Source: Ilex aquifolium (lineage: Eukaryota; Streptophyta; Magnoliopsida; Aquifoliales; Aquifoliaceae). Taken from it: a stretch of 64,000 nt of DNA. The translations under genes and the position numbers were made by a program. How positions within the stretch are numbered: position 1 is the stretch's first letter; each line of letters opens with the position of its first letter. Positions 220 through 58,467 of the stretch are shown one piece after another. The stretch spans positions 8,708,001 through 8,772,000 of the forward strand of contig OX637402.1 in the NCBI GenBank assembly GCA_951799425.1, in the 5' to 3' direction. Below the pieces are notes generated by a model that saw only the letters and a program-made list of their open reading frames with translations, had not been told where the DNA came from and did not search any database.

Positions 220-1340
220 TCAAGAACATAAATCTCTCTCTCTCTCTCCGCCAGCTCCACCTGTTCCACCAGCACCACCCCTCAGAAGGCGCAGAATCTC
301 ATCCTACTTAGCTTCGATGCTAAGCATGATCTCTCAAAGTGAGCGTTGGGTGCTGGTACAGGGCCCTGCCTCCTGTGTCTGTGCCTGGTCTCTCTCAGCA
401 TCTAACTCTCTCTGCTCCTCCTCATCTAGCACATCCTGGACTTCATCAGTGCCTCAGGCAGGGGGCTCCTCTCGTCTAGCCGCTGGGCCTCCACTGTGAC
501 CTTGGCTCCTCCAGAAGGAAGCCTTGTTCAGTGGCCCCATTGGATTCTGGATAGTCATCTTAGGCCTTATCCTAATCCCGTGGTCCTTGCACATCTCCGT
601 GACCAAGGTGCCAAAAGGGAGTGAGCTCCTCTTCACATCGCATCCCTTCATCATCCCTGTCAAAATCAGTGAGGGGTGGTCTATGTTGTGGCCCTTCCCA
701 AGCGTGTATAGTAATCGGGTTGCCTCGGGGAGGATCTCGTTCTTGTGTCCAATGGGGGCAAAGTCCGAGACCGCAATCAAATTCAACATTTTATATTTAT
801 CAGACAGATCTCCTTGTCGAAAAAATCTTCGCCCTACCCAAGAAAAAGTAGTTATCCCTGTTAGGTCCGCCCCCACAACGTTCATTGCCATGCTCTTCCT
901 CGGGGGGTATGTAAGCCTTGGCACCCGAGGCACCTCTTGTCTCAATTCCCGGATGTACTTCTCATCCAAATCGATATGGGGCCCCCTCACATACGTTTTG
1001 ATTGCTCCATTAACTATTTCGGCGTTGGAGTATAACTCCCGCACCAAGTCAATTACGGCCTCATCGCCGTTTCTCAAGTACAACACCCACCCCCTATTCT
1101 CCATGTCCTCAAGAATCCCCAACTCAGCAAAATCAATCAACACCACATCCCGCTCACAAACCACAGCTTGTTCTCGGTAGAAATTTTCATACCTGTCTGC
1201 CTTGAAGGCGTTGGGGAGCGAGTTCGATCGAATCTTCGCACAATAGGCCTCCCCTCCCTTTCCTCAATGAATTCTTCCACCATATTGGGCTCTTGACTGA
1301 CTGGGTTGCGCCTAGCAGGAAGCTTCACTCTTGGAGGCAT
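220..1340 (-). pseudogene. Third ORF of element 1: plant transposon-protein domain (PF20167-like), decayed
   Basis: The ATG at 1340 opens a basic, proline-rich N-terminus (MPPRVKLPARRNPV). The frame is lost around 1200-1250 and resumes in another frame, whose longest open part is 454-1164. That part resembles the domain annotated as putative plant transposon protein: a VRELYSN segment, then YVRGPHIDLDEKYI, then a helical part ending LPFGTLVTEMCKDHGI. In-frame stops lie at 454-456, 334-336 and 304-306. Beyond them the frame still encodes an acidic stretch and a likely coiled coil (SIEAK.DEILRLLR), then glycines encoded next to a (TC)n run at 233-248. No signal peptide or membrane segment is seen, so it does not look like an envelope protein. 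Molecular function is unknown. The match is by eye. Confidence 0.6.
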
Positions 1341-1570
1341 GATTTTCGGGTTTGTGGTGTTTAAGGTTTTGAAAAGTTTGATTTTTTTGTGAAAATGATG
1401 ATTTTTAAGGTGGGAATGCCTTTGGGGTGGTTGATTTTTGGTAAAAATTGAGAATGGGTGGTGTTTTGAGACTTGGGTAGTGAAGAGTTGCCCTAGCGTT
1501 TGAGGGTTTTTGGAGATTTTAGGTGTTTTTGAACTGGGGAAGATGAACCAGGCTTTTATAGCCTGAGGGT
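1341..1570 (-). promoter_or_regulatory. TATA box and leader of the third ORF of element 1
   Basis: On the minus strand a clear TATA box (GGCTATAAAAGCC, TATA core 1553-1560) lies 213 bp upstream of the ATG at 1340. The leader is rich in A, C and T, with many CCAAAAATC-like runs and no long ORF. The first palindrome repeat sits only 13 bp upstream of the TATA core. This promoter is internal to the element, downstream of pol, and separate from the LTR promoter. Confidence 0.6.
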
Positions 1571-1572
1571 TG

Positions 1573-1866
1573 ACGTTCGAACGTAACTTTCGTTCGAACG
1601 TATGTAGAAGAATTTTAAAAGGATCATTCGGACGTGAGACTGGCATTCGAACATGGTGAGCTCCCCGTACTTTTGGGTTCTATCAGAGACCAAAGTACTG
1701 TAAGCTCATGGCGTTCGAACTTTTTATTGGTGTTCAAACGTGGAAGTCTGGTTCAAACGTTCTATTGGCGTTCGAACGTGGTGAACTCCTAGTACTTTTG
1801 GGTTCCATCAGAGACAAAAGTACTGTAAGGAGATGACGTTTGAACATTATCTGGCGTTCGAACGCC
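1573..1866 (-). repeat. Motif A cluster: about ten TTCGAA-centred palindromes upstream of the internal TATA box
   Basis: Copies related to GGCGTTCGAACGCC occur at 1573-1584, 1591-1600, 1625-1635, 1643-1654, 1711-1720, 1731-1740, 1751-1760, 1768-1781, 1834-1846 and 1853-1866. Some are perfect palindromes and others have decayed centres (TTCAAA, TTTGAA, TTCGGA). A 65-bp direct repeat (1655-1719 and 1781-1845) carries part of the cluster. The same motif recurs in the LTR of this element at 38492-38866. Confidence 0.8.
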
Positions 1867-2733
1867 AAATCAAAAATAAAAATTCTTATGGACATTAATA
1901 TTCACAATAAAAGAGGGCTATGCACATAAGTTTGAACCAAAAATTCATAGCGTCTCAAGATAAGTCCCTACCCACGCTTTAGGTTGGTATTCTAGGATAT
2001 TCCTTACTCGGCCCATGTTTCCATTTCAGTCAAAAGAGTTTGTACATAAAAATATTTTTTTACACTTTTTACAAAAATTCGAACCCTCGGCTTTCATCCC
2101 TAAAGAAACAATTTTCCTCAGTTTTATTAGAATGCAGTCTAATTCGAGTCATCCTCTGTCCCCGTGTCATTTGAACCATCAGTGACTCTTCTAATTTCCT
2201 GTCACACAAACTGGTTAAGCAAAGTACCGGAATGGGATAGCGTGTCAAGATAATCCTTACTCTGCCCATTCACTATCCAGTCTAATCGATCGAGTGTGCG
2301 ACCGAAAATTGGTTCAGAACACTGATTATATTATTTCATATGAAAGACCCAGCCACATTGTTTACAGGCACCAAGTCTTTTGGCACGACAACGTTTAGCA
2401 AATGTGTTTCTGCCACATAGTTGTTTCGCTTGCTGTTCTCGGATTTCGTTCTTTCTTACCAATCTTGTTTTTCTCATGATCACAGTATGCACATCAAATG
2501 GAAAGTTGCGTAAAACTCCCAAACTAAACAAAAAAAGTTTACTATCCATGCTTGCTAAATTTTAAGACACTCTATCTGTTTCTTTAACATCTGTCAATCA
2601 CAAAGACGATTGAAGCTGACTCACATACACAATCATCAATTTATACAAAATACGAGGCAAGGTTCACGATATGATCAGAAACAGCAACAACAACAAAAAA
2701 TTTTACGAGCACAAAATATGAATTGTAATTCTC
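1867..2733. other. Non-coding spacer between the post-pol box and the internal promoter
   Basis: No convincing ORF. A diverged short repeat (ATAGCGTSTCAAGATAA) occurs at 1948-1964 and 2238-2254. A small basic minus-strand ORF at 2331-2549 with one CxxC pair has no recognisable relatives and is not called. Confidence 0.4.
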
Positions 2734-2734
2734 A

Positions 2735-2767
2735 CCCCCCAACCTAAATTGAACATTGTCCCCAATG
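2735..2767 (-). other. Post-pol purine box of element 1 (polypurine-tract-like)
   Basis: The minus strand reads CATTGGGGACAATG, an A/T-rich spacer, then GGTTGGGGGG. The same arrangement follows pol in element 2 at 60250-60285. In element 2 a separate purine tract precedes the true 3' LTR (56339-56352), so this box is probably an internal purine tract between pol and the third ORF. Its role is not established. Confidence 0.5.
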
Positions 2768-3138
2768 TTTCAAATTTACCAGTGTATGGATCTTGGAGAT
2801 GAGGTTGAAAGGTAGAGATCTATTCATCTACTGAAACTTACAAACAAAACACAATAATTAATCATCTTTAGGGAGTTCTGGGTTTCGGGTAGGATGGAAA
2901 TCCTTGTGTGTGAGTGCGAACAAGAGCAGAACAACCATGAGCAAATACAAGATTAAAATGCAAAGCATGAAGCAAAGGATTGTATATGTGGAATGTGTGG
3001 TCATTGGTTTGCAGGGGCTGGGTCTCTTTTACAGAAAAAAAAAAAAAGAAAAACGAAGAAGAAGTAGAAGAAGAAGAAAAAGAAAGGGGGGGGGGCAATA
3101 GCTACGAATGGGAAAAAGATACAAAAGGGGTGGGGGTC
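2768..3138. other. Short spacer with low-complexity purine tract
   Basis: Non-coding stretch after the integrase stop. The plus strand has a purine-rich low-complexity tract at about 3035-3098 ending in a run of G. Nothing else is recognised. Confidence 0.5.
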
Positions 3139-4327
3139 TTATAAAGGCGTCCCAGCGGGTCGGGTTGGGTTGGATTTTTCTTGACCCGACCCATTTTTGT
3201 GTCGATAGGCACGAATCTCGGAGGAATATCCTGGATCCATTAAAAGAATGGTTTCCACTTTTTTAACAAAGTCTTCCAAAAATGGTTTCAAACACTGACC
3301 ATTGATGGCAAAGATATTACCATTTGATGGGTTTTCTATTTCCACTGCTCCATGAACAAATACTTGTTTGACAATGTAAGGTCCAGTCCATCTCGATCTC
3401 AACTTACCAGGAAAAAGATAGAGCCTTGAATTATATAACAGGACTTTTTGAGAGGGTTCAAAAGACTTCAGTACAATGTTCTTGTCAAGAAAAATTTTCA
3501 TCCTGGACTTAGCAATCTTAGCATTCTCATATGCTTCATTTCTTAATTCTTCTAGCTCATTAATTTGAAGTTTTCTTGCTAGTCCAGCCTTATCTAGGTC
3601 AAAGTTTATTGCTTTAATGGCACAGTATGCTCTGTGTTCCAATTCCACAGGTAGGTGATAAGGCTTGCCATAGACTAATAGATAGAGAGACATGCCCAAA
3701 ATTGTTTTGAAAGCAGTGTGATAAGCCCAGAGTGCATCAGTTAGTCTTAACGACCAATCTTTGCGGTCTGGGTTTACCGTTTTTTCTAAAATTAGTTTGA
3801 TCTCTCGATTAGCCAATTCTGCCTGTCCACTAGTCTGTGGATGGTAAAGGGTTGCAATTTTGTGAAAAATCAAGTATTTTTTCATCAAATTCTAGAAAGG
3901 GCGATTGCAAAAATGAGCACCCCCATCACTTATGATGAATTTCAAAATTCCAAACCGGGACAAAATATTTTCTTTTAAAAACTTGATCACTGTTCGGTGA
4001 TCATCATTTTGGCATGGAATTGCTTCAACCCATTTGGACACATAGTCTACAACTACTAAAATGTATAGATAGCCAAAGGAAGGGGGAAATGGTCCCATAT
4101 AATTGATGCCCTAACAGTCAAAGATTTCAAGTATCAGAATTGGGTTCAAGGGCATCATGTTTCTTTTAGAAATGCTTCCCAACTTCTGCATCAATCAAAT
4201 GTTAGACAAAAGGCATGGACATCTTTGAAAAGTGTGGGCCAATAAAATCCACACTGCAAGATTTTTGCAGCGGTTTTCTTTGATGAGAAATGGCACCACA
4301 TGCTTCAGAATGGCAAAATGATATTAC
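3139..4327 (-). pseudogene. Integrase of Athila-lineage element 1 (broken)
   Basis: The core lies in two segments. 3892-4098 holds the catalytic DFMGPFP-type start and the second aspartate in FIISDGGAHF. An in-frame stop at 3892 separates it from 3139-3888, which has the [15 protein letters not shown] segment with the catalytic glutamate, then the C-terminal part with the WTGPYIV (GPY/F-like) motif. The three acidic residues are therefore still visible. The N-terminal zinc-binding part between 4098 and 4327 is scrambled by frameshifts and stops. The C-terminus runs past the GPY-like region into an arginine/proline-rich tail ending at 3139. Confidence 0.85.
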
Positions 4328-6072
4328 CTATCTACTCTCACGCTCGAGGATGCAACACCTTATGATCTGATCCTTACAGTACTTAAATACGTATGGATCT
4401 TCCCAAAAGAAATTATGAACCTCCCTCAGAAATTTCTTTCTATCCATCAATGTAAAGGAAGGAGGAAACGTACCAGTAGCAAGAAAGTTAGCAATATCAG
4501 CGTACCATGGTGTTTCCATGACTGTGAACAGTTGTTCATCAGAGAAATTTTCATTAATTGGTAGTCTATCCTCCTGAAATTCATACGTTAACCTGGATAG
4601 ATGATCTGCCACCACATTCTCAACACCTTTCTTGTCCTTAATGATCAGATCAAACTCTTGGAGTAAGAGTATCCATTGTAAGAGCCTTGGCTTGGCATCC
4701 TTTTTTGTGAGCAAAAATTTTAACGCTGCATGGTCAGTGAATACAATAATAGAAGAACCAACAAGATAAGATCGAAATTTCTCCAGAGCAAAAACTATAG
4801 CAAACAATTCTTTTTCAGTTGTCGAGTAATTCATTTGAGCATCATTCAAAGTCCTGCTTGCATAGTAAATTACATAGGGTTTCTTATCTTTTCTTTGTCC
4901 CAACACAGCACCTACCGTGTAATCACTAGCATCACACATCAATTCAAACGACAAAGTCCAGTCAGGGGGTCGCATGATTAGAGCAGAAATTAACATACCT
5001 TTAAGCTTGTCAAAAGCTTTCTGGCATGCTTCACTCCACACAAAAATTACATCCTGACTCAGGAGATGACACATTGGTTTAGCTATGGTACTAAAGTCTT
5101 TTATGAATCTCCTATAGAACCCTACATGTCCTAGGAATGATCGGACATCCTTTATGGTCTTGGGAGCAGGCAAATTTTCAATCAGATATATTTTTGCCTT
5201 GTCAATTTTCATGCCTTCAGACGACACAATGTGACCCAGGACAATGCCTTGTGTTACCATGAAATGGCATTTCTCCGAATTGAGCACTAGATTGGCTTCA
5301 TTGCATCTTATTAACACTTTCTCTAGGTTATTCAAACACAAATCAAACGAGTCACCATATACAGAGAAGTCATACATAAACACTTCCAAAAAAATTTCAA
5401 CCATGTCACTGAACAAACTTAGCATGCATCTTTAGAATGTTGCAGGAGTGTTACAAAGTCCAAAAGACATCCTTTTGATGCAAAGGTGCCAAAGGGCCAT
5501 GTGAACGTTGTCTTTTCCTAGTCATTTAGTGCTATCTCGATTTGATTGTACCCAGAATACCCATCCAGGAAGCAATAGAATGTCTGTCCTGTAATTCTCT
5601 CTAGGACCTGATCAAGAAAGGGAAGAGGGAAATGGTCTTTCCTAGTCACCAAATTGAGCTTTTGATAGTCTATGCACATTCGCCATCCTGTGACGACTCG
5701 AGTTGGTACTCGTTCATTGGCATCATTTTTGACCACTGTGACCCCAGACTTCTTGGGCACAACTTGGGTTGGACTAACCCACTTGCTATCCGAGATGGGG
5801 AAGATTATCCCTGCATCTAATAGCTTAAGCACCTCAGTTCTCACAACTTCCTTCATGTGAGGGTTCAGTCTTCGCTGCATTTGACGAGAGGGTTTTGAAT
5901 CCTCTTCAAGGTATATAGCATGATTGTAGATTAACGGGCTTATACCTTTCAAGTCAGCAATGGTCCACTCAATGGTGCTTTTATGGCATTTGAGAATTTC
6001 AATCAACTTAGACTCTTGTAAGTCCGTAAGCTTAGATGAAATTACCACTGGGTATGACTCATCCTCTCCCAA
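4328..6072 (-). pseudogene. Reverse transcriptase and RNase H of Athila-lineage element 1 (broken)
   Basis: 5518-6072 encodes the N-terminal half of RT (KWVSPTQVVPKKSG, CIDYQKLN, LDGYSGYNQIEI). 4328-5425 encodes the rest plus RNase H ([52 protein letters not shown]). Stops and frame changes break the roughly 100 bp between them. The RT active-site box reads FMYDFS where Athila elements normally have FMDDFS, so one catalytic aspartate is replaced by tyrosine. RNase H keeps its acidic residues. This copy could not make active RT. Confidence 0.9.
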
Positions 6073-6074
6073 GA

Positions 6075-6276
6075 ATGCATATTTGAGGTCAGATAGGAGT
6101 GGCTTTAGCTTAGGCTTTGGTGGCTTGATATTTAATGAGAGTGGTTTTGTACCACTTGATGAAAGTTCCTCAAATATGCATATTTGAGGTCAGATGGAAG
6201 TGGCTTTAGCTCAGGCTTTGGTGGCTTGATATTTGATGAGAGTGGTTTTGTACCACTTGATGAAAGTTCCTCAAAT
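6075..6276. repeat. 101-bp tandem duplication inside pol of element 1
   Basis: 6075-6175 and 6176-6276 are near-identical (a few substitutions). The unit encodes part of the linker between protease and RT. As 101 is not a multiple of three, it shifts the frame, which explains why the linker ORF (6132-6401) does not run into RT. Confidence 0.9.
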
Positions 6277-7132
6277 TTGGATGCCCATGTCTCAACAGCA
6301 TAAGCAGGGCAACTTTGTGGATTTGAGTCATCATCTGTTGTCTTAGATGTGCTAGGTTCCAACAGATATGATTTAGCAGAGGTTTCACAAAAAGGTATCA
6401 TTCATATGTTCGTGAACCAATGACTCAATGGAATTTATTTCCCTTACTTCCTTGTCCTCTCCAGGGTGCTTGACAATATTGAAAATATTCAGCTCAAGAG
6501 TCATATTCCCAAAATTCAATTTCATGACTTCATTCCTACAATTGATTAGTGCATTTGAAGTTGCAAGGAAGGGTCGACCAAGAATAATGGGAATTTGGTT
6601 CTCTGAATGTATTGCTGGCTGAGTGTCTAGAATAATGAAGTCAACAGGGAAGAAAAAGTTGTCTACCAACTGGAGTGTGACACAAGTGGGTTTGAGTTCA
6701 CCCAGACCCAACTGTTGGTAAACAAAGAATGGGATTAAATTGACACTTGCCCCAAGATCGAGCAAAGCTTATTCTATTCTGAAGTTTTTAATGATACAAG
6801 ACACGGTTGGACACCCAAGGTCCTTGTATTTTGGAGGGGTTTTGTGTTGAAGTGAGGCACTGGCTTGTTCCGTCAAGAAAGCTATTTTTTGGACATTTTG
6901 GCTTCTCTTGATTGTGCACAAGTCTTTCAGAAACTTGGCATAAGACAGAACCTGTTTGATTGCATCCAGAAGTGGGATATTGATCTTTACTTGCTTAAAA
7001 AGCTCGTAAATTTTTGGCTGGCTATTCAACTTCTGTACAGCTTTGAGTCTTTGGGGAAAAGGAGCAGGAATAGGGCATGAAGGTTCTTTTTCCTTTGATG
7101 ATTATGGGTTCTGTTCAACCATAGGCTCAGGC
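6277..7132 (-). pseudogene. Protease and gag-protease linker of element 1 (broken)
   Basis: 6385-6765 is a retroviral-type aspartic protease of Athila type: LDLGASVNLIP active site, then IILGRPFLATSNALINC. An in-frame stop (about 6769) precedes the DLGAS block. 6769-7029 upstream is the gag-pol linker (PLLDAIKQVLSYAKFLKDL, then CTIKR). Upstream of 7029 further stops occur, and the frame is then interrupted at 7132 by the chromovirus array. It resumes at 36201-36205, beyond the array. Confidence 0.85.
7128..7132. repeat. Left target-site duplication of the array
   Basis: CAGGC directly precedes LTR1. The five bases after LTR5 (36201-36205) are CTGGC, one mismatch away. Removing the array and one copy puts the proline/glutamate-rich gag-pol linker frame of element 1 back in register. 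Confidence 0.65.
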
Positions 7133-7886: not shown

Positions 7887-7917
<31 letters not shown>

Positions 7918-9234: not shown

Positions 9235-9239
9235 AGTAA

Positions 9240-9252
9240 TGGTATCAGAGCC
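9240..9252 (+). other. Primer binding site, unit 1
   Basis: TGGTATCAGAGCC begins five bases after LTR1 and is complementary to the 3' end of plant initiator tRNA-Met. Confidence 0.95.
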
Positions 9253-9425
9253 TAGGAATTAGGTCTTACATGGGAGCTGTAGGTTAGGGATTACCACTAG
9301 AGAGGTAGGATTAGGTTGAAGGAAATTATTGATTTAAATTTTGATGCAATCATCATGCTTTAGATTAAGGTGATAGTTAGGATGTCTTGTACATCAAGGA
9401 ACTAAACTGTGAATTGGTGTGCAGG

Positions 9426-37095: not shown

Positions 37096-37164
37096 AGTAA
37101 ATCAAAAATATATACAAAAAGGAAGGTCTTTTCACCTTTTTGCCTTAAAACACCTTTTATGGTT

Positions 37165-37181
37165 CCCCGGCAACGGCGCCA
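37165..37181 (-). other. Primer binding site of element 1 (tRNA-Asp type)
   Basis: The minus strand reads TGGCGCCGTTGCCGGGG, complementary to the 3' end of plant tRNA-Asp and usual in Athila-type elements. It marks the 5' LTR as lying to the right. Confidence 0.92.
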
Positions 37182-38372
37182 AAAAACTTGACTTGATCCG
37201 AAATGTGCACACCCAAGTGCAGGCGGTCAAGTTGTAGTAATAATCCAGTTTAAGTCCGGAGTCGAATCCACAAGGAACTATTGTTGATGTTTTGAGGCAA
37301 GCAGTGGTGGAGACCAAATGATTATAACCCATGAGATTTGAAGTTGTGTGGTGTATGGGATTTCCTAGACAGAATATAGGATTCTTTCCAAGAGGGTTGT
37401 CTAGACAGAATATAAGATAAGCTCAAATGTAAAAAGTCACTCTTTAGTTCGAGGATCTGGACATGTAGTTAATCATCCGGTTTATTATACTTGTGCTTGA
37501 TAACTCAATTAACCCATGTGTCAACAACAAGTTAATCGGAAGATAAAGATGGATTGTGAGAATTAAGAGCATGGTTACGATGTCTTTCTAGAAGTTTACA
37601 AGAATTTTCTATGCCGAGACTCAACCCGTCTACAAACAAGCAAGTGTTTCTACAAGGCATCCAACCATGACATTAATATTCCATTTCCATTCTTTAATTG
37701 AAGCACAATAATGGTGAAGATTGAAGGGTAGTCATGAACATCTAGTCGGGGTACTTGCCTTGAACCGATGAATCTTTCTATGCAAGAGTTATCTATGTTA
37801 TAGAAAGTACTCATGGTTATACAAAGTACCTTAGCTTTGCTAGATGAAATCAATCATTCAAAAAGCAAGTGAAATATAAAGCATTAAACATAAATGAAAT
37901 ACACAGATTTAACTTTCGGATGATTTATACATGTCCATTACCTCTTACTAAAGAGTGAATGAGAAACTACTCACTCGTCATGACTTTGGTAAAGTTAGAA
38001 AAGTGAGTGATGCTCATCCCTCCAAGTAGAGGAGTTGCAAAGTAAAACACAATAAGCAAGGAGCCGATCTTCGACGAAGAATAAGGGAATCACATTCCAC
38101 CCTTCACGGCTTTGGCAAAGCTCTAGAAAAGTGGAAGAGTTTCACTCCTCTAAGGGAAGAAAGAAGCTCAAGCAATGGAAGTGAATGAAACAAATATTGA
38201 AAGTAGAAGAAAGCTAGACACTTTTGGAGGGTTTCCTCCTCAACCAAAAGATGATATATCTCTCTCTATGCAAGTAAATATAAACCTAAGTCTAAGACTA
38301 ATTCTATAATAAGCTAAGAAATGTTGGTCTAGTGCCAATCCAACTACCCTTTGGAGCTCCTATAATGGGAGT

Positions 38373-38380
38373 ATTTATAG
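38373..38380 (-). promoter_or_regulatory. TATA box of the element 1 LTR
   Basis: The minus strand reads GCCTATAAATACTCCC. It lies 112 bp downstream of the nearest motif A copy. Confidence 0.7.
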
Positions 38381-38491
38381 GCAAAGAGGAGGGGGCAAGG
38401 TAGTGTGGAGGAATAGTACAAGGCCTTCAAAGTCCAAGTGAAAGTCCCAATGTCCGGAGAAAAAATCAACCACTATGCAGCCTGTCTGGGG

Positions 38492-38866
38492 ACAACGTTC
38501 GAACGTTGTCTGGCGTTCGAACGTTGTATCTGTCTTTGCTTGATGAGCGTTCGAACGTTGTATGGCGTTCGAATGTTGCTTTTGTCTTTGCTTGATGAGC
38601 GTTCGAACGCCAGATGGGGTCTGATCTTCCCACTCAAGTGGCATATGGTCTTCTGTGAGAGCCATTTCCACACTCCATGTTCAACTTGACATTGCACTCA
38701 GCAACGTTCAATAATTCAGCAGAACGTTCGAACGTGATTTAGCGTTCAAACGTGGTACTCAAGTACTTCAGTGTTTTCCTTCTTTGCTGCAACATGCCAT
38801 GTCTCAGTAGCCTAGTCCTCAAATAATTCAAGGGGACGTTAAAATGTTATTTGGCATTCGAACGTT
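38492..38866 (-). repeat. Motif A cluster in the LTR of element 1
   Basis: About nine copies of a GCGTTCGAACG-type palindrome: 38492-38509, 38511-38527, 38545-38561, 38563-38580, 38597-38614, 38722-38736, 38741-38755, a weak one near 38836, and 38851-38866. This is the same motif as at 1573-1866, although the flanking sequence differs. Confidence 0.85.
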
Positions 38867-39058
38867 CTTGCTTTGTTCCAAGTTTCTCCAATTTTGCTCT
38901 AGGGCATGCCAGTGTTGCATGGATGTTTGATATTCGTTGCCTTTGGACCTTTGTTCAATTTATATCTTGAAATGTCATCATTTAAACTCCATCAAAGTAT
39001 AAGTAGTTTTAGAAAGGCATATTAAGATGTCAATTTTAACTATTAATCAAAGGGTCCA

Positions 39059-40330
39059 CTAGAACATCATCCACCCTGGCCATCTTGGGTGGAAGAGTAT
39101 TCCTAGTGGAATAACGGGACTCCACTTGGTCCTATCAACTACATAAGGGTAAAGTGTTACCCTAATAAAAAAGAGAGAGAAAAATTTGAAGGAATCCAAC
39201 ATACCTTTTCTCTTCGATGAGGAGCTGCTAGCCTTGGCAGAAGACACACAGCCTCTAGCATCTCTAGAAGGAGGGGTCCCTAGCCTCACCCTCTCTAAGC
39301 ATGAGGGTCCCATAGTCCCTTACGGGATAGGGCCTCACAACCTGAAGCTTCCACTCCTAATCTGCTGAGAGCATTGGAGAGCCTGGAAAAAAGGTGGTTA
39401 ATACAAAAAAAAAAGGGAGACAGGTTGTACCTATCCTCTTTGGAAGGCCCCACCTCATTGGTACTAGAGCCCTGTCTGCCTCTGAAGCCCACTCTCCTCC
39501 TACAAACAAGAAGTGATCCTTCCAGCTATGGCAGTTGGACCGCAGCCCAACAATTAATTTTCCTTCCCTCGGAATGAAGCAATACCAACCGCGGTTGGGA
39601 GCAATAGTTTCACTCAAAATATAGGCAACAAAAAACTCTTTAGGGGAGGCATCCTCATAATGCACCCTCCTCCATAGTGCAAGAAATCCTGGCAGATCTC
39701 TCTGACCATTGGGTGACAAATGCCCCGGCGTGAGTAAAAAATAATAAAGGATCCGGCAAACGGGAGAAGGTACGTGAAACCTTAACCCTGCCTCAAGTAC
39801 CTCCTCATAAATAACAATGTCCCTCGAGGATTCATCAGAGGCTGGCTCGCCCATCTCAGCCGGATGGCACAACACTGCAAGAGGAATGGAAAAAGTGGAT
39901 ATAATACAAGCAATCTCAACAGCAGTGTTAAGGGAGCTAGAGATAGAGTTCACCTTAGAGCCATCATCAGTAGACACTTTACCATGATACTTGCGTCGTC
40001 GTGGATGAGAAGGAGCACTACCACCATCATCTCTCACCACCTGTCTAGCCCCTGTCTCTGTGCATAGCTTATTCCTGACACCAAGCTCCTGCGCCCGCTC
40101 CTATACCTTCACTTGCCCATGTGCCAACGCCAACCACGGCACCCTGAACACCCACGATCGCATCCCGGCCAACTGCTACACCTTGGCCAGTGCCTGCGGC
40201 ACCCACGTTTGCGTCCTCTACGCCTGTGGGGCCCACACTCGCTACTCCCAGGACGCCCATACCTGCCTTGCCTATGTCTGCTTCACTCACACCACCTTTG
40301 CCCTACATCACTCTTTAGTCTAACCCTCTC
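39059..40330 (-). pseudogene. Antisense gag-like ORF of Tat element D (PF04195-like)
   Basis: The best part is 39357-40040. A serine-rich segment is followed by EVLEAGLRFHVPSPVCRILYY and APNRGWYCFIPREGKLIVGL, then SWKDHFLFVGGEW, resembling the 'putative gypsy type transposon' domain. The upstream part (40069-40290) is Gly/Ala/Val-rich in another frame, so the N-terminus has a frameshift or stop. Two likely GT-AG introns interrupt the 3' part: about 39382-39430 (ending TTTTTTCCAG) and about 39140-39205 (starting GTATGTTGG). Tat-lineage elements are known to carry such antisense ORFs between pol and the 3' LTR, which fits its place before the tract and LTR at 40707-42587. Confidence 0.7.
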
Positions 40331-40364
40331 AAGGAATGGAACAAAGGGAAATGAGGGGGACCTA

Positions 40365-40605
40365 TTTATAGCCCAACCTTGGGAGTTACCTAGTAGGATT
40401 GGCATTCAAGTATCCTAATTGGAGTAGGATTGACATTGAGGATCTCCTATTCACTTTGGCAGTTACCTAATTAGATTGGCATTCAAGTGTCCTAATTGGA
40501 GTAGGAGTGACACTAAGGAGCTCCCATTCACTTTGGCAGTTACCTAATTGGATTGGCATTCAAGTATCCTAGTTAGAGTAGGAATGACCTTGAGAAGTTA
40601 TCCTA
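40365..40605 (-). promoter_or_regulatory. TATA box and 77-bp tandem repeats upstream of the antisense ORF
   Basis: The minus strand has GGCTATAAATAGG (about 40366-40378). Just upstream, three tandem units of 77 bp lie at 40384-40460, 40461-40537 and 40538-40605 (last one partial and diverged). The arrangement suggests enhancer-like repeats for antisense transcription. Confidence 0.6.
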
Positions 40606-40706
40606 TGAGGATAATCCATACCAAAAAGGAAAAAAAAATTCCTCGTCAAGGAAAAGAGTTCAGCCGCAATTGGACCAGCTAATGCCTTCTCCCCCAAATC
40701 ATTAGG

Positions 40707-40728
40707 CTTGGGGTATGGGGGCAAATGA
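40707..40728 (+). other. Polypurine tract of Tat element D
   Basis: GCTTGGGGTATGGGGGCAAA directly precedes TGATGGG, the start of the LTR. Confidence 0.7.
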
Positions 40729-42587
40729 TGGGCCCAGTGATTAACCTATTTAGTATGTAAATTAAAAAATCAAAAAACTCGAATTAGTATAATAAACACA
40801 CTAAAAATTAGTACTTAGAGTGAATTAAGGTTTGTGCGGGAATGATATTAGTTATAACATTTTATCTGAAAGCTGCAGGACAAATGCTGAATTAACACAA
40901 GACCAAGGGAGCAATGTCAAGGAAATGCAAAGAATAAAGGCCAAAGTGTAATTAACCAACGAGAAGAGTCAGCATGCATGCAAGTGGAGTTTCCAGCAAA
41001 GCACCACCGTCCAGACGGTGGGACTGCCGTTCGGACGGTCACCATTGTCAGAAGTCAAGTTGCCCACTTGCCCATGTCTCTTCCCACGCCTATAAATATC
41101 CTTCTCCACTTCAGCTTTCATACGGCCGGACTGAGGCAGAAAAGAAGAGAGAAACAGAGAGATCTGAGAGAGATTCTGAAGTTCTGAAGAGAGAAAAAGA
41201 GAGAAAGAAAAGAGAAGAGAAAATACACTCCGGTCTGTGTTATACTTCAGTCCTAAGTCCTGTACCTTTATAGTTTTTGTATAGCTTTCAATTCGAATAA
41301 TTGAACTGCCGCCACTTTTTCATCTTAATCGATTATAAGAGTGGTTGTGTTTCAATCGTTCCCTGCGAAAGACATTTAAATTCCGCACTTTCCTTTCTGT
41401 TGTAATGACAACTGCTAGCTCTCCTTGCTTGTCTATAGCAATGGAGCGTGAGTAGTTCCGTATATCCTCCGGTTCGAGGGGAACACATGTATAATATTGA
41501 TCTGTTTTTGGAATTGCTGATGTTTTATTTATACGTTTATTATATATACAAGACGGGCCAGCTAGAATGACCCCGGCGTTCCTACCGGTATGGTTAATCC
41601 TCCACTGGAATGCTGAGGAAGTTCCACTGACGCCTGATAGTATTATATATATATAAGACGGGCCAGCTAGAATGACCCCGGTGATCCTGTCAGTATGGCT
41701 AGTCCTACACTGGAACGCTGAGGAAGTTCTACTGTCTATATATATATATATATATTACAAGATAACCTATTGAATAATTCAAGTATGCCGTTCGAGTAAC
41801 TTCACTTTCTGGGTGATATATCTAAATACAGTGTAGCCTAAGAAGCAGCTGTATTATGATTAACTACCACCGGTTGACCTGACAAGTCACCGGAAGATAG
41901 TCTGTACCACCTGCGGATTTTACTTGAATTAATCAATTGGAACATCTAAGCCCAGTGTAGCCTAAGAAGCAACTGTGCTATATATTACCACCGGTGTAGC
42001 CTAAGAAGCAGCTGTGTTATGGTTTATTATATATATACGTATTTGCAATCATGAGATCAAGTGAATAACTCAAGTATTCCTCATGAATGGCTTGTCCTTC
42101 TGGTTTGCTTGGGTTAATCATTTGACATAAATATAACCAGTGTAGCCTAAGAAGCAGTTGTGTTATAATATATATATACATCAGACCTGCCGGTTAGCTT
42201 GCCAGTAAAATGGAAGTTAACTGATGTGAGGTAGCAATTCCGTAACAAGACCGATGTAAAGCATGTGGGATCCTTGAACTGAAGGATATCTTTTATATTT
42301 CTGTCATTCATTTGTTTTACGTACGCATTTTATTTCTGCACCTTTATTCCACCTGTTATTTTAGAATCAAGTTTTTAGCACCGTCATTAGACTAAGCTCA
42401 CACCACAAGCGATTAAACATCAAACTACTCCAAACAACCTTTTTATTGCTTTATTTTTATTTTATTTATTTTATTTTATTTTAATTACTAAAACTCTCTG
42501 TGGGATCGATACTTGGACTCAAAAACCAAGAAAACTACAATTTGACCACTTATACTTGGGTGTAATATAATAATATAATTCTGACAC
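40729..42587 (+). repeat. 3' LTR of Tat element D
   Basis: Starts TGATGGGCCC after a polypurine tract; the end near 42587 (TTCTGACACA) is approximate. It holds two motif D palindromes, a TATA box at 41101-41108 and a GA-rich leader. Downstream are internal repeats: a 105-bp duplication containing GACGGGCCAGCTAGAATGAC (from 41551 and 41656) and four copies of AGTGTAGCCTAAGAAGCAGC (41830, 41954, 41994, 42139). (TA)n runs lie near 41646 and 41728. The pol of this element is not in the window; element 1 or a deletion separates it. Confidence 0.7.
41006..41038 (+). promoter_or_regulatory. Motif D palindromes in the Tat D LTR
   Basis: ACCGTCCAGACGGT (41006-41019) and CCGTTCGGACGG (41027-41038) lie 62 bp upstream of the TATA box at 41101-41108 (GCCTATAAATATCC). 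The spacing resembles that of motif A and its TATA boxes in element 1. Confidence 0.7.
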
Positions 42588-50931: not shown

Positions 50932-50989
50932 TAAATTTCGATATGATACAAGTACCATACTAAATTTCGGTATGATACAAGTACCATAG
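50932..50989. repeat. 29-bp tandem duplication upstream of the LRR gene
   Basis: Two copies of a 29-bp unit containing TATGATACAAGTACCATA, with one internal difference. Confidence 0.9.
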
Positions 50990-51519
50990 TGCCCTCCTAA
51001 GCACCTGCTGCCATACAGCCACCAATGCGGACATATTTCCCGTGTATAAATAGTGGAACCACACATAAAGAAATCATGAGATTGATTTTTAAAAAAGTGG
51101 CAGAGAATTTTGAATCTGGTGCGCTCCAACGTTCGAGTGGTATTTAGAATCCTCGTGATCCATCAAACGGTCACAAATTTCCATGTGAACCCAATAAAAT
51201 TCATCCCTCAAAAGAAATTCAATTTTTTCCTGGGCTCTATAAACTACACATTGTTCAGATCTTCGGACCATATCATTGTCCTTCTCAGTCACTCTTAGAT
51301 TTTTCTTCTTTCTTTTTCATCATTATGCCTTCTGGTCTACGTGAAAGAATAAACCCCCGTTTCCATTGTAGAACTTCCCTTATTTTTATGTAACAAAGTA
51401 GATCTATTTTATTATTCCCAGTCTGACTGAGTTCTCTTTGTCAGATTCCAACTTCACTTCAAAATCCTGATATATTTTTCAGCAATCTTTCCAATCAAGA
51501 TCGAAACCCATTTCCCAAA
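50990..51519 (+). promoter_or_regulatory. Promoter and 5' leader of the LRR gene
   Basis: Two TATA candidates are seen: GTGTATAAATAG (51043-51053), 470 bp before the ATG, and CTCTATAAACTA (51235-51246), about 275 bp before it. The nearer one fits a typical plant leader, which would include the pyrimidine-rich stretch around 51300-51330. No upstream ORF of note. Confidence 0.5.
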
Positions 51520-53310
51520 ATGCAGAGTCTGCTGTGGGTTTTCAGGCTTTTTATCATTCTTCCATTCCTTGATCTGTCTTCAAGAGCCCTAGCCCAAGAA
51601 GAGTCAAAAGCTCCTATACTTTGCTCAGATGCTGATCGAGTTGCTCTTCTTGGTTTCAAAGCCAGAATACTGAAGGACACAACTGACATTCTCTCTTCAT
51701 GGACGGGTGGAGATTGCTGCGGAGGAGGTTGGGAAGGTGTTCAGTGTAACGAAGCCACAGGGAGGGTTACTGGGTTACTGTTGCAGAGGCCCTCCGATAG
51801 CGAAAATGGCATTTACATGAAAGGCACTCTGTCACCTTCTCTGGGTAATTTGCATTTCTTGGAGATAATGGTGATAAGTGGGATGAAACGTATTACAGGA
51901 ACAATTCCTCAGAGTTTCTCAAATCTAACCCACCTCGCCCAACTTGTGCTAGAGGACAACTCTCTCGATGGGAACATTCCTCTAAGTCTAGGTCATTTGC
52001 CCTTACTCAAAACGTTCTCAGTGAGTGGGAACCATTTGACTGGGCAGATACCTTTTAGCTTAGGAAATTTCAGAAATCTTCTCCAGCTAAATTTAGCAAG
52101 AAACTCCCTTACTGGTCCTGTACCATCCACCTTCAAGAACTTCCTCAGCCTGCAGTATATTGATCTCAGCTATAATTTAATTTCAGGGTTTGTTCCTGAA
52201 TTTTTAGGGCAGTTCAAAAACCTGACATTTCTTGACCTTTCCAATAACCAATTATCAGGTCAGTTACCCAATTCCTTGTTCAATTTGGCCAATCTTGCAG
52301 ACATGTCACTGAGCCATAATCTGCTCACAGGAAGAATCCCAGTCCTAGTCGGTAACCTAAAGTCTCTGACCAGTCTCTCACTTAGTTCTAACAAGCTTAC
52401 AGGTCAAATTCCAGAATCCATTTCACGACTGCAGAACCTTTGGTACCTTAATTTATCTCGAAATGTGCTTTCAGATCTTTTGCCAAGCAATGGCATCCCC
52501 TCTCTGTTATCAATAGACTTGTCTTACAATAGGCTGAATTTGGGGATAGTTCCTGAATGGATCAGAAGCAGAGAACTTTCCGAGGTCCATTTAGCTGGCT
52601 GCAATCTTAGAGGAACCCTCCCAAATTTCACGAAGCCTGATTCCTTGACATCCATAGACCTCTCTGACAACTATTTCACGAATGGTATTTCAAAGTTCTT
52701 CATAAAGATGTCAAGCTTGCAAAAAATCAAGCTTTCAAACAACCAGCTCAAGTCTGATCTTTCAGAAATCAAATTGCCAGGTGGCTTATCGTCCCTTGAT
52801 GTCCATTCAAATCATCTTTATGGGTCGCTCTCAAGTGTTTTGAACAATAAAACAAGCAAGTTCTTGGAGGCTATTGATGTGTCTAACAATCAAATTTCAG
52901 GTAGCATACCTGAGTTCAATGAAGGCTTGAGCTTGAAAATGCTCAAGATAGTGAGTAACAGGATTGCTGGTCACATCCCAAGTTCAATCTCAAACCTGGT
53001 TGAACTCCAAATGCTAGACATTTCAAGGAACCAAATAACAGGCACAATTCCTACAAGTTTAGGATTATTGCTGAAGTTGCAATGGTTAGACTTATCCATC
53101 AATGGACTCACAGGAAAAATCCCAGATAGCCTGCTAAGTATAGAAAATTTAAGACATGCAAACTTCAGGGCAAACAGATTATGTGGAGAGATCCCACAAG
53201 GAAGGCCAATTAATATCTTCCCTGCAGCTGCTTATGCCCACAATCTCTGCTTATGCGGGAAACCTTTACCACCTTGTAAGGGGAAGAAGTTAGGAAAAAT
53301 GGGCCAGTAA
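51520..53310 (+). CDS. Secreted leucine-rich-repeat protein, 596 residues
   Basis: Intact single-exon gene. The ATG at 51520 gives a hydrophobic signal peptide (LLWVFRLFIILPF; likely cut near ALAQ, residue 26). An N-terminal LRR cap follows, with DRVALLGFKARI and the paired cysteines of GDCCGGGWEGVQC. About twenty plant-type 24-residue repeats (LxxLxxLxLSxNxLxGxIP) run from about residue 95 to 550, with a less regular stretch around 310-420. The end has LCGEIP and a cysteine pair (LCLCGKPLPPCKG). There is no transmembrane helix and no kinase, unlike receptor kinases or most receptor-like proteins. It is probably an extracellular or wall protein in recognition or as a partner of a receptor. 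Exact orthologue not named. It is the only uninterrupted host-type gene here. Confidence 0.93.
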   Translation: MQSLLWVFRLFIILPFLDLSSRALAQEESKAPILCSDADRVALLGFKARILKDTTDILSSWTGGDCCGGGWEGVQCNEATGRVTGLLLQRPSDSENGIYMKGTLSPSLGNLHFLEIMVISGMKRITGTIPQSFSNLTHLAQLVLEDNSLDGNIPLSLGHLPLLKTFSVSGNHLTGQIPFSLGNFRNLLQLNLARNSLTGPVPSTFKNFLSLQYIDLSYNLISGFVPEFLGQFKNLTFLDLSNNQLSGQLPNSLFNLANLADMSLSHNLLTGRIPVLVGNLKSLTSLSLSSNKLTGQIPESISRLQNLWYLNLSRNVLSDLLPSNGIPSLLSIDLSYNRLNLGIVPEWIRSRELSEVHLAGCNLRGTLPNFTKPDSLTSIDLSDNYFTNGISKFFIKMSSLQKIKLSNNQLKSDLSEIKLPGGLSSLDVHSNHLYGSLSSVLNNKTSKFLEAIDVSNNQISGSIPEFNEGLSLKMLKIVSNRIAGHIPSSISNLVELQMLDISRNQITGTIPTSLGLLLKLQWLDLSINGLTGKIPDSLLSIENLRHANFRANRLCGEIPQGRPINIFPAAAYAHNLCLCGKPLPPCKGKKLGKMGQ

Positions 53311-54532: not shown

Positions 54533-54980
54533 TTGAAGGTCAAATCCGTCTTCCCTAACTTCCCACACGAACCCGATTGTTTGTGTATATGGCTTATAGT
54601 GTATGGTGAGTGTCATTCTCCCTCAAGTTCAATGCAAAAAGTGGAGAAAATTGTGTGAGGATGAACAAAAAATGTATGTGTGCAAAATTGCTCCCCAAGC
54701 GTAGAGAGTCTTGCAATGTCGTTTTTTACTTGTATTGAGTATTCCAAAGTCGTCTCCTCGGGGAAGGCGAGGTTGGATGTTCTTGAAGAGTGATATGTGA
54801 AAAAATTAAAATTGAAAAATCTTGTGATTTGAAATTTGGTGGGTTTTGAATTGAGAAATATGCAAAAAAACAAGGTTGGCCAACCCATAGAGGCATTCCA
54901 ATGGGAATGTCAAATCGACTCATTTCATTTAACCAACGGTGTCTCGGTATTTGATTGATTCGTAGGAAGTGAGAGACTAA
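54533..54980. other. Spacer left of element 2
   Basis: No gene recognised; short ORFs on the minus strand have no family features. Confidence 0.4.
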
Positions 54981-56338
54981 TGTAGTTGTGTTGGAAAATA
55001 GCATACCCCGTGACAAGTCTATGGTGTATCAAAAGCCCACAACCATGTCCGCATTCAACCTAGTCAAACCAACACATTGCACTATGAAGAAGAATGGAAG
55101 AGAGTCGATTTCACATACCTAGGAGGAAATCCCTCTTGGATTAGCCAACTAAAAGTTTAGCTATGCATGGTAAAAGCAATAACAAACATTAAATAGAGAA
55201 ACATGGTAGTGAAATCAAGCATGGACTTGTATTAATGTAAGAGAAGGTTTAAACTACAAGAGAAGAGCCATTCATAACCGAAATGGAAAGCTTGAAGGGA
55301 ACAAAATCCAAATATGAAAATGAACCCCAAGAAACTTAGCTAAACTTGATTACAACTTTAATTAAAAGAGATTAGAGTACAAGAGGGAAAGATTACATAT
55401 AAAATGGAGCTTACTACAATGAAAATGGTGAAGGAAAATGAAAAACCCAACTTTCTCTCTCTAGAACTTCATCTTCTTCCTTGGACCTTCTCTCTCTAAA
55501 AGCTTCATAATATGAAATTGCATGTAAGAAGTGATTATTTTTGTCCATCCCCCTCTCTCTTAGCATGAGTGGCTGACTTGCAGTGTTTGGAGAGAGATTG
55601 TCCACAAAAGCTTCCAAAATTAGTCAAAGCATGGTCCCATGCTTTGACTAAGCACTCCCTCTCTCTACATTGGTCACCCTCTTCCCCATGTTTAAAATCT
55701 GAATTTAGGGGTTAGGAGGTCATAATAGAGTGTTAGAAATGTCAGAACATGGATTAGGTAACAAAAGGTGGGCCCCTATAGTTGGTGGAGTCATTTAGAG
55801 AAGAATCTGAGTTTTTTGGGTAGCAGGTATCTGTAGCTCATTGAGCTGGTACTGGTAGCTCGACATTCCTCATTCTTGATCTAGTAAGGGACATGCGGGA
55901 GGTACCAATAGCTCAGGCAATGAGGTACTGGTAGATCATTTCTAGTGGGGTCTAGTACTGGTAGCTAAAGTAGGTAGGTACCGATAGCTGATTTCCAGTA
56001 ACATTTCAGCTATCTGAGTTTCAAGGAACCGGTACCGGTAGCTAGATGAGCTGGTAGCAGTAGCTCGTTTCCAGAGAGCTGGTACCGATAGCTCTTCTTC
56101 TTGCCTTAAGATTCTTGGTCCCTTGAGCTCCCGAGCCATCTGTCTTGAGATCCTTTCTTTCACATTGACCTCGATCACTTAATGGGGTGCTTTATGCCTA
56201 CCATTTCCATCTTATCACCTGCAATCAAGCCATTCTCCATTAATTATCGATTTTAATCCATTTCCCCAAAAATTCACTACAAAACAAGTTAAATGGATGC
56301 AATGAAGATGTTTAATATGCAATGTTCGACACTCATCA
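54981..56338 (-). repeat. 3' LTR of element 2
   Basis: The minus strand starts TGATGAGTGTCG directly after the polypurine tract. The left end is uncertain by some tens of bases (54981 is one TG candidate). U3 has motif C palindromes. U5 has a typical T-rich leader with TTAATTAAAGTTG near 55365. No coding sequence. Confidence 0.65.
55823..56094 (-). repeat. Motif C cluster in the LTR of element 2
   Basis: About ten copies related to GGTACCGGTAGCTC (plus-strand reading): 55823, 55843, 55899, 55922, 55951, 55975, 56029, 56047 and 56076, plus a weak one near 56006. Most are decayed at one or two bases (GTACTGGTAGCT, GTACCGATAGCT). The same motif recurs upstream of the third ORF of this element. 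Confidence 0.85.
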
Positions 56339-56352
56339 CACCCCCCAACTTG
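56339..56352 (-). other. Polypurine tract of element 2
   Basis: The minus strand reads CTCAAGTTGGGGGGTG before the LTR start, preceded by CTAGGGACTGGCAAAG, a context usual before 3' LTRs of these lineages. Confidence 0.75.
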
Positions 56353-56589
56353 AGCTTTGCCAGTCCCTAGCAAACCTTATTTCAAAAATCTATACAATGC
56401 AAGTATAACAATCCCATTCATGTTAATCAGTTCATGGACCAAACAAAACTCTCAAATCACATTGCAATTATGTACATGAACTTGGGGAACAATTTAAACA
56501 AAAGGTAATGTTCTTTCATTCATAATCTTTCTCAGGGAGTACAAAGAACCCCAAACAAAATGGCCTACTTTCCTAGGAACTCTTCTACG

Positions 56590-57900
56590 AGGCCAATAAC
56601 TCCTAGACTGCTATCCTCCATATACAACCAACCAAAAACAAAGACTCGAATCTCTCGTAATCCTCCTCCTCGTTATCATCATCATCCTCATCCTCATCCT
56701 CATCATCAGACTCAACGACTTCCACAACAGTCGAAGTGGCTGGGGCGAACGTCCATATGTCAGCACTAGTCCCCGTAGTTGATGGTGGGAACTCTAGTGT
56801 GGTGGCCTATGATGGTGCCATCTCGGGAAGAGGCTCTCCAGGGAGTTGCCTTTCAAAAATCCTAGTAACCCATCAGCTTCAGCAACTACATAGTCCCACT
56901 GAAATCATCCAACCTCCCCTTTGATCCGAGCTAGATGCTAAGAGACCATAAGAGGTGGGGCAGCAGTAAATGGCCTGGCTGTAGATGATTTAGCTATAGA
57001 TAGCTCGGCCCGAGATGGCCTAGACCTTTCCTCTCTCTGCCCGAGCCCTCCTGTCATAGTTGTTCTCTTTATGCTGCTCGGCTTGCCTATAGGGCCGAAC
57101 TTAGGCGGGAATGTCACGTCTGTAGGGATGCCCTTGACCTTATTCTAATAGCAGTTCTAGGTGACAAGGTGGGCGTAAGGCAGGTTCGCCCTCGGCTTCG
57201 TAGCCTGGGCATAGTCCTTCATCACCTCCCAATTCATCAATGCGATGTCCATTTTGGTGCCAGCCATGAAATCATAGATGAGGGCCATTCCCCCCCCCCC
57301 CCCCCCCGGTGTTTTCTTTGCTCCCCGAGGCAAGACATTGTAGTGGAGGACTTTATTCATCACTCCGTAGGAATGCTTGAGTCCCCCGACTTGAATTTTT
57401 CCATTGAACTGTGAAGGGTCCTCATACATAAGGCTTGCATACTCCTGGAGTGATTTCCTCCCTTAGGTGTTATAGGGAAAGACAAGGGTATTGGCCAGAG
57501 GCCTCTGACACTCCAATGCCTCGGCGATGAATGCTGGAGTGACCTCGATCACCATTCCCCTCACATTCATATTGAGGAAGCACAAATCCTCATCCACCAC
57601 TGTCAATCTCTGATAAAATTCTCGACATTAGGGAATCACATACCCATTCACTGCCTGGAACCAAAAGTGTAGCCCATGGCCCTCAATCGCCCGGACTACA
57701 TCATCGTGTGGCCCGAGGGTGTTCCTATCCACTTGTCGCTCACACGTCACATTCTTGATTCCAATGCTCTTCGTATGAAGGTCGTGCTTCTTCTTCTTCC
57801 TTTGTTCCCCACCACTAGGGGCCGTCTCCTCCACCCTTTTTTTGGACCCGGTGCCCACTTGTTTTGATGTGAAAGGGCTTAATTTTTTGGTGCAGGCCAT
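56590..57900 (-). pseudogene. Third ORF of element 2: plant transposon-protein domain (PF20167-like), decayed
   Basis: ATG chosen at 57900 (MACTKKLSPFTSKQVG), followed by a lysine-rich nuclear-localisation-like stretch (EQRKKKKHD). The domain then reads in one frame through two stops (near 57630 and 57465): CREFYQRLTVVDEDLC, MNVRGMVIEVTPAFIAEAL, then KVLHYNVLPRGAKK and a helical end RANLPYAHLVT, with a further stop at 57154. An 18-base C run (57290-57307) makes an in-frame glycine run. Downstream, in a shifted frame, is a strongly acidic tail (about 56620-56720: VVEVVESDDEDEDEDDDD). No signal peptide or membrane segment is seen. Same family as 220-1340. Function unknown. Confidence 0.65.
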
Positions 57901-58269
57901 CAAAACCAAAAATGCCCCAAGGGCAAAGAACGGGAACACTCATCCCCAAAATAACTCAAAAACACCAAAAGACGAAGGTGGAGACTTACATTCTATCCAT
58001 TGTCTAAAAATCCAAGATTTGAGTGAAGGGTTTCGAGACTTTGATGGAGTATCTTGGATTTGGATGGATTTGGGGGTGTTTTATGGAGAGGAGAGGGTTT
58101 TTGAGAGAAGAGAATTGAGGAAAGTGAAGAGAAATCAAAACTTGAGGGAGAAAATCGATTAAGATGAAGGATGCCCAAGGTTTACTTGAAGGTTTGGATA
58201 GTTTTGATAAAGAGTAGAGTGTTTTTGAGAGGGAGAGGAATGAGAGAAGTGAGGGAAATTTTAAAAAAA

Positions 58270-58467
58270 AAATGGCTTTAAAACCCTTATTTTTGCGATT
58301 CTGGGCACGAGCTACCGGTTGCTCGTAAGCTAGTACCGGTAACCCTTCATGCTGGTATCAGTAGATAGCCATTCTGGAAAACAGGTACCAGTAGCTCAAG
58401 GCTCTGGTACCAGTAGCTCTTCATTATGCTTTTCTAGCCATTCTGCCTCAGAGGTACCGGTAGTTAG
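58270..58467 (-). promoter_or_regulatory. Internal promoter region of element 2 with motif C cluster
   Basis: Six copies of the GGTACCGGTAGCTC-type motif: 58309-58325, 58328-58343, 58351-58369, 58382-58398, 58402-58420 and 58451-58467. On the minus strand they are followed by GGGTTTTAAAGCC (about 58273-58285), a possible decayed TATA box comparable to GGCTATAAAAGCC in element 1. A pyrimidine-rich leader and the ATG at 57900 follow. Confidence 0.7.

Follow-up and report, generated by a model that had tools for sequence, protein, structure and literature searches.

Among plant long terminal repeat (LTR) retrotransposons, the closest described parallel to the arrangement considered here comes from the Sireviruses, in which, according to the available text of a 2010 report (PMC2829016), element-specific palindromes cluster in the LTR 5' of the TATA box and appear again 5' of ENV. 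All nine motif-bearing Sireviruses with ENV carry the palindromes in both places and all four without ENV have the LTR copies only; a CGG-CCG core is present in 12 of these 13 motifs, and six further ENV-bearing Sireviruses are without the motif (PMC2829016). Use of an ENV promoter is likewise reported in the accessible part of a study of Athila6A (PMC4977677), and the part available for VANC21 describes measured DNA binding to non-palindromic motifs that share a single orientation (PMC5735166). Here we describe palindromes in a comparable position in two Athila elements of Ilex aquifolium, both on the minus strand of a 64-kb stretch of DNA (the window; contig C12 of genome G000, 8708001-8772000; host genome 800 Mb, 103 contigs). 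Each element carries an array of paired palindromes in the U3 part of its LTR and another 5' of its third open reading frame (ORF).

An earlier note on this DNA had reported TTCGAA-type palindromes in element 1 and a different motif in element 2, in both cases in U3 and again before the third ORF. Both sets were recovered, and the array coordinates given there proved correct to a few bases. The 5' LTR of element 1 occupies 37188-38981 (limits from the sequence), with a stretch resembling a primer-binding site (PBS) just inside at ~37164-37181. Its U3 array (38496-38864) comprises nine CGTTCGAACG-type sites with pairs 18 bp apart, and a second array of ten CGTTCGAACG-type sites in 17-19 bp pairs lies at 1574-1864, 5' of the third ORF (457-1340; the right end is an ATG, the left end is the end of the open frame, and the frame is broken near its start). 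Clear TATA boxes stand by both arrays, one in the LTR (LTR1, 38373-38379) and one, TATAAAA at 1554-1560, before the third ORF, as the note had it. In element 2, whose 3' LTR starts at ~56341, GGTACCGGTAGC-type sites with pairs 21-23 bp apart occupy 55826-56094 in U3, and six such sites in 21-22 bp pairs lie at 58311-58466, before a third ORF in several broken frames (to the right of 57160, starting at 57898). Of the TATA patterns searched, none was found near the U3 array of element 2, and TTTAAAA (58265) was the sole one before its third ORF. The paired arrays are real and confirmed at both places in both elements. The assignment of both third ORFs to the PF20167 type held for element 1 (72.1 bits against a Pfam cut-off of 45; E 6.9e-20 for 457-1263), whereas the weak match in element 2 (57160-57462, 20.9 bits) falls under that cut-off.

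The correspondence within each element is specific. The sequence GTTCGAAC has ten places in the 64 kb, five at 1575-1856 and five at 38497-38726, and none elsewhere. A weight matrix from the element 1 U3 array matched nine times in its own U3 and ten times at 1574-1864, not at all in either element 2 array or in the chromovirus-like LTR that is also present in the window, and eight times in scattered positions elsewhere, against a chance expectation of 12.8 for the whole window. The element 2 matrix gave ten matches in its own U3 region, six at 58311-58466, none in the element 1 arrays and six elsewhere, which is within chance. With seeds taken blind from the four regions and the 64 kb ranked, the best other 300-bp interval was the cognate region in four of four cases (4, 6, 6 and 9 matches vs maxima outside of 2, 3, 2 and 2). 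The start-to-start spacing of pairs, 17-19 bp in element 1 and 21-23 bp in element 2, is alike in U3 and internal array, and with sites placed at random over the same span the observed pairing arose at frequencies of 0.00015, 0/20,000, 0.0006 and 0.0079 in the four arrays.

Element 1's array is abundant in the host genome, where GGCGTTCGAACG has 15,227 matches on both strands and its reversed control has 10. The 26 array loci (13 + 13) fetched among the matches listed, on contig C1, hold an Athila U3 array in 21 (L142 counted with a weak U3 match), an Athila internal array in seven (six with both), and a chromovirus-like LTR in four. In all six of L121-L126 the third ORF adjoins one cluster and the other cluster is in the LTR, all within ~4 kb; these loci were picked for two clusters ~3.5 kb apart, so only the position of the ORF between the clusters is independent. 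This fits the assignment of the left 2.7 kb of the window to the element of the LTR at 37188-38981.

Genomic copies of this LTR are 81-84% identical in their main pieces (1.0-1.8 kb) and 68-72% in U3 pieces, and the palindromic sites are better preserved than their surroundings in the one Athila family, that of element 1, in which conservation was measured. Across 22 U3 copies, the window's included, site columns are 0.950 identical vs 0.885 elsewhere (circular shifts reaching this, 0.003); the values are 0.948 vs 0.869 in eight copies of the internal array (0.001) and 0.965 vs 0.914 in six stretches of the chromovirus-like LTR (0.014). Restricting the comparison to sites in which the search pattern is rare or absent gives 0.938 (0.027), 0.941 (0.005) and 0.958 (0.058), respectively. 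Of the 17 changes by which paired element 1 sites depart from the palindrome, 13 are CpG transitions, a bias that methylated DNA would be expected to show.

Two explanations that involve no protein reading the DNA bear on these data. The palindromes could act in RNA, as hairpins, in dimer formation or in long-range pairing of genomic RNA; they stand ~8 bp apart and could form hairpins, and both places lie within the genomic RNA. We consider this very improbable, since pair partners compensate one another no better than shuffled partners do (element 1, p 0.26 and 0.20; element 2, p 0.73 and 0.66; small samples of 9 and 6 pairs), which argues for DNA rather than RNA, as does the prevalence of CpG transitions. 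The arrays could also be a by-product of copying, in which template switching or conversion transfers short units from U3 to the internal region or back, with no regulatory role. A local duplication within the element 1 internal array (1641-1740 and 1766-1864) is in keeping with this, as are an exact unit in locus L152 and a stretch common to Athila and the chromovirus-like element, both described below. Copying nevertheless appears improbable: with sites masked, the element 1 U3 and internal region are alike only at shuffle level, the sites exceed other columns in conservation at both places, though they are CpG-rich, and TATA boxes lie downstream of the arrays in L150, L152 and element 1. 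For element 1, an origin of the internal array as a segmental duplicate of U3 was considered and is not supported, masked likeness being not above that of shuffles. Element 2 retains slight additional likeness: wide masking left a U3/internal score of 20-21 vs a shuffle maximum of 21, and one inverted 36-bp match was found between the two regions (83%, E 3.5e-5).

The arrangement recurs in other Athila families of the same genome. A genome search with PF20167, in which 150 of 6661 candidates were scored, found no match in 14 control genomes, and the host-genome matches listed are all above the cut-off. Eleven third-ORF loci (L147-L157) were chosen to be diverse in frame length and domain, blind to motif, and other families' palindromes were present at both places among them (CGTCCGGACG, CGTCYRGACG and CAGCGC-N-GCGC). 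When each place is required to have three or more sites of a single palindrome, three of the 11 qualify: L147 (four upstream, three downstream), L148 (three and three) and L150 (eight and four). The CAGCGC-N-GCGC form was recognised after reading the sequences, so its counts upstream and downstream in L149 (5/2), L156 (1/2) and L157 (5/1) are post hoc, and with the original seeds the downstream arrays of these three are below threshold; the seeds CGTTCGAACG and CGTCCGGACG also cross-match each other's sites at two mismatches. In L150, CGTCCGGACG pairs 23 bp apart occur at both places with a TATA box after each, and L152 has a pair 20 bp apart at both places with a TATA-like box after each. Over 884 bp, an LTR in the window (~40737-41593) shows 88% identity to what is presumed to be the 3' LTR of L152, and by this likeness it is a member of a third Athila family; it carries the pair CCGTCCAGACGG / CCGTTCGGACGG, 20 bp apart (41007-41038, plus strand), followed by a TATA box at 41091.

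Agreement between the two places was also scored over every repeated non-simple 10-mer, with no palindrome requirement, by pairing upstream with downstream regions of 13 elements (the 11 sampled loci and the two window elements; the downstream region was the 598-bp U3 for element 1 and 3 kb for the others). Own pairs scored 30, whereas 20,000 re-pairings scored 13.6 on average and never more than 29 (p<5e-5); the 11 sampled loci alone gave 18 vs 11.3 (p 0.003), and seven family representatives gave p 0.0016. The claim that motifs agree within elements and differ between families extends to loci sampled without regard to motif. Third-ORF domains are 79-97% identical within a palindrome class (66% when L154 is counted with L151 and L155) and 21-42% between classes, element 2 being excluded for its broken domain. 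CGTYYRRACG-form palindromes occur only in the clade of element 1, L150 and L152/L153, whose third ORFs are 39-42% identical mutually and at most 36% to the others. On these alignments palindrome class tracks third-ORF clade.

The position of the arrays 5' of TATA boxes (element 1, L150 and L152), together with the dyad symmetry and pairing of the sites, their conservation and the absence of compensating changes in potential hairpins, suggests that the palindromes are DNA sites for a dimeric protein. A plausible mechanism is that many Athila families possess a small enhancer of paired palindromes, present twice. The LTR copy, 5' of the TATA box, would drive the genomic RNA, gag and pol, and the second copy would serve an internal third-ORF promoter from a position 5' of it. 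A DNA-binding protein, acting as a dimer, would read the pairs and co-activate both promoters or keep them open. The shared enhancer is well supported, while its enhancer role and the protein reading it are what we infer from the sequences. That a protein acts through such an enhancer at both promoters of an element, in many Athila families, seems to us an even call. That this protein is the product of the third ORF, a self-specific activator or anti-silencing factor co-evolving with its sites, falls a little short of that; we rate it slightly likelier than host factors, and the remainder goes to another element protein or to none.

A number of observations weigh against this reading. Not one of the 11 sampled third-ORF loci belongs to element 1's class, and the five family representatives outside the window give p 0.067 in the blind test, so much of the effect there is due to the two window elements. 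Two-place agreement within families stood for most families and failed in the clade of L151, L154 and L155. In this clade, TGATCGATCA sites stand 5' of the third ORF (17 in L151, 18 in L155 within the first 1000 bases fetched, three in L154), and no TGATCGATCA cluster of at least three sites was found in 6.5 kb downstream; in L151 and L155 the first 3 kb downstream, a region only presumptively U3, is free of such sites and holds GTAACCTTAC-type repeats instead, and L155 has two such sites in the downstream extension. L153 has an upstream pair only. In L152 the 32-bp pair unit 5' of the third ORF is the exact reverse complement of a unit in the presumed downstream U3, so sharing can arise by copying. 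The expectation that the palindrome co-varies with the third ORF was borne out at the level of class and clade, and not by L150 and L152, which share CGTCCGGACG although their third ORFs are 39% identical. Agreement graded in this way is expected of a co-evolving binder and would also follow from linkage and common descent, as linked pieces of one element co-vary with the third ORF whatever binds. Recombinant elements, in which LTR and third ORF come from different families, are reported for Athila of Arabidopsis (PMC2410132).

Further points of the same kind come from the chromovirus-like elements, a name that rests on PF24626 (SH3_Tf2-1) and on what we presume of that lineage. The window's chromovirus-like element, in which Pfam matched no chromodomain, has GTACCGGTAC palindromes in each LTR (7284, 14118, 20863, 27609 and 34355) and no ORF of at least 150 amino acids except gag-pol; with palindromes of its own in these LTRs, it indicates that arrays need no third ORF. 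TACCGGTA is the core both of GTACCGGTAC and of element 2's palindrome, which may be by chance. Two genomic loci, L132 and L133, carry CGTTCGAACG arrays with 17-18 bp pairs, in two clusters each, within sequence like the chromovirus-like LTR; their gag pieces share 47-90% identity with the gag of the window's chromovirus-like element, no match to the pol or third-ORF pieces of Athila was found in them, and L139 and L140 match the same LTRs. The CGTTCGAACG array had been called private to its Athila element, which genome-wide is not supported.

The shared region extends beyond the sites. With sites masked, a 45-bp stretch of the chromovirus-like LTR matches Athila internal promoters (80% between L122 and L132, E 1.3e-5; L126, E 7e-5; L121 weaker); the window's own internal copy has no match to it at E 0.01, and a comparison with three Athila U3 regions gave no match to the masked stretch either. 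Inverted repeats of the form CAGTACTTTTG...CAAAAGTACT, which lie between palindrome pairs at 1640-1865 in the element 1 internal array, are common to Athila third-ORF promoters and the L132/L133 LTR. These matches suggest that an enhancer cassette may have moved between the lineages, in either direction. Under the mechanism proposed above, the chromovirus-like element with the CGTTCGAACG array would depend on the Athila protein acting in trans, or have a host factor in common with Athila.

The latter option leads to a rival in which host transcription factors bind the palindromes, one recruited per family and used at both promoters, with no element-encoded regulator. The same array and homologous stretch in a chromovirus-like element with no third-ORF match are in keeping with this, and TTCGAA and its decay products fit what we take to be the CHR-type consensus of plant CXC (TCX) proteins, TTYRAA. 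Four unlike palindrome types in one genome (CGTYYRRACG with three variants, GGTACCGGTAGC, CAGCGC-N-GCGC and TGATCGATCA) would, however, require several host factors, which would have to be switched at both promoters in three of the four types, and the tracking of third-ORF clade by palindrome class also speaks against it. Sireviruses without ENV do retain LTR palindromes in the available text (PMC2829016), a point in its favor. Overall we regard host factors as a substantial possibility, though one we would not favor.

As to the third-ORF protein itself, the available part of one source reports that a sunflower Athila element encodes a third ORF of this domain type with a nuclear signal (PMC11728184), and this is not itself evidence of DNA binding. 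The element 2 third ORF has a lysine-rich stretch near its start, which by itself is no sign of DNA binding. Fold prediction for the piece at 457-1263 with 13 sequences gave no usable fold (mean predicted local distance difference test score, pLDDT, 40.4), and a sequence search of solved structures with the PF20167 protein returned one chance-like match (E 1.2) and no link to a DNA-binding protein. The candidate P0003 was rejected, being joined to dynactin-like sequence, and its coiled coil was not used. The broadest proposal is that the "env-like" PF20167 ORF would encode a family-specific regulator of its own LTR and its own promoter, acting by positive feedback or anti-silencing and co-evolved into several specificities per genome, which chromovirus-like elements would exploit via the same cassette; we consider this rather unlikely. 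The interpretation in the earlier note is, overall, partly supported.

The remaining features of the window are as follows. Element 1 pol pieces lie in several frames at 3142-6768 (minus strand), with reverse transcriptase (RT) and RNase H domains by Pfam and protease and integrase parts by position only, and the extra ORF lies downstream of pol on the sense strand. Its PF17917/PF17919 (RT_RNaseH) matches mark a pol that we take to be gypsy-type and not Ty1/copia. Element 2 pol pieces occupy 60487-63850 (minus strand), and the two pols are 63% identical over 231 amino acids (element 2 piece 61564-62256). The tandem chromovirus-like array, at 7133-36200 on the plus strand inside element 1, has five LTRs, shared between neighboring units, and four internal regions with a period of ~6.75 kb; long stretches are 98-99% identical and the first LTR ~94%. 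The array may be an assembly artefact. Its flanks, CAGGC/CTGGC, resemble a decayed target duplication. To the left of the Athila-type LTR at ~40737-41593, an antisense ORF (39360-40728) matches Transposase_28 (PF04195, 27.5 bits vs a cut-off of 26.2); a TATA-like box and 77-bp tandem repeats lie upstream of it, and no site like the adjoining LTR's palindromes was found in the region at up to three mismatches. Between the elements, a long open frame with leucine-rich repeats (51427-53307) is perhaps a piece of a host gene.

Viral and genome contig collections were searched for plant relatives with a PBS pattern, and protein scans confirmed none. The pattern matched 15 viral and 97 genome stretches, and by tblastn only one of the 112, L055, matched window frames, in gag-pol pieces. 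This contig (NZ_JABGCI010000027.1, filed as Blastococcus endophyticus) encodes an Athila-like gag-pol and is probably plant contamination in a bacterial genome; no third ORF was seen before a stretch like a polypurine tract, and its partial U3 is too little to count either way. The same holds for L010 (BMWJ01000030.1, filed as Streptomyces clavifer), which at 1222-1420 as oriented is plant-LTR-like with AATGGNNNNNCCATT-type repeats just 5' of a TATA box. Three contigs of Candidatus Burkholderia humilis (L032, L039 and L078) hold Athila/Tat-type PBS stretches and are possibly host plant DNA beside bacterial sequence.

The function of the extra ORF in Athila is an old open question, and family-specific site sets at both promoters allow a direct binding test with foreign arrays as controls. 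Binding by the third-ORF protein would mean that LTR retrotransposons, like the VANDAL DNA transposons, encode sequence-specific regulation of their own; binding by host factors would make the arrays a route to those factors and account for an enhancer shared by unrelated lineages. The comparison with VANC proteins, which the earlier note had drawn and which supplies the functional model, holds in one respect. VANC motifs are short and element-specific, dense in non-coding tandem repeats and variable between related families in the accessible text (PMC5735166), and dense family-specific non-coding motifs are found here too, shared with a chromovirus-like element. It does not extend to the proteins, as the VANC domains named in the text available are DUF1985/DUF287 against PF20167 here, and VANDALs are DNA transposons. 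Consistent with this, 13 members of set A4 searched against Pfam at E <=10 gave PF20167 in 12 and no VANC domain, in a search whose filters drop most matches above 0.1.

Grande gene23 and the Retand ORFs resemble the present case in having an extra ORF between pol and the 3' LTR, with its own promoter in Grande and predicted DNA binding in Retand (PMC7264820, PMC11963269); they differ in being antisense, with a Transposase_28 domain, and the accessible parts of these sources mention no motif sharing with the LTR. Athila6A offers an internal promoter for the third ORF, the available text naming neither palindromes nor a link to the LTR. A literature search covering titles and the beginnings of abstracts, with subscription papers mostly outside it, found no account of such palindromes in Athila, which is no proof of novelty. 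The Sireviruses remain closest, in that palindromes precede both the U3 TATA box and the extra gene, as in element 1, L150 and L152; that architecture is not seen in L151, L154 and L155, and for element 2 the patterns searched gave no U3 TATA box. Sireviruses are Ty1/copia elements whereas Athila is Ty3/gypsy, and the CGG-CCG core is not in element 1. What is added to the Sirevirus report is the occurrence in Athila, in several families of one genome, the spacing of the pairs, the test of conservation and the sharing with a chromovirus-like element, the architecture itself being already known. The Athila palindrome pairs are a variant of that known architecture, present in most but not all of the families sampled.

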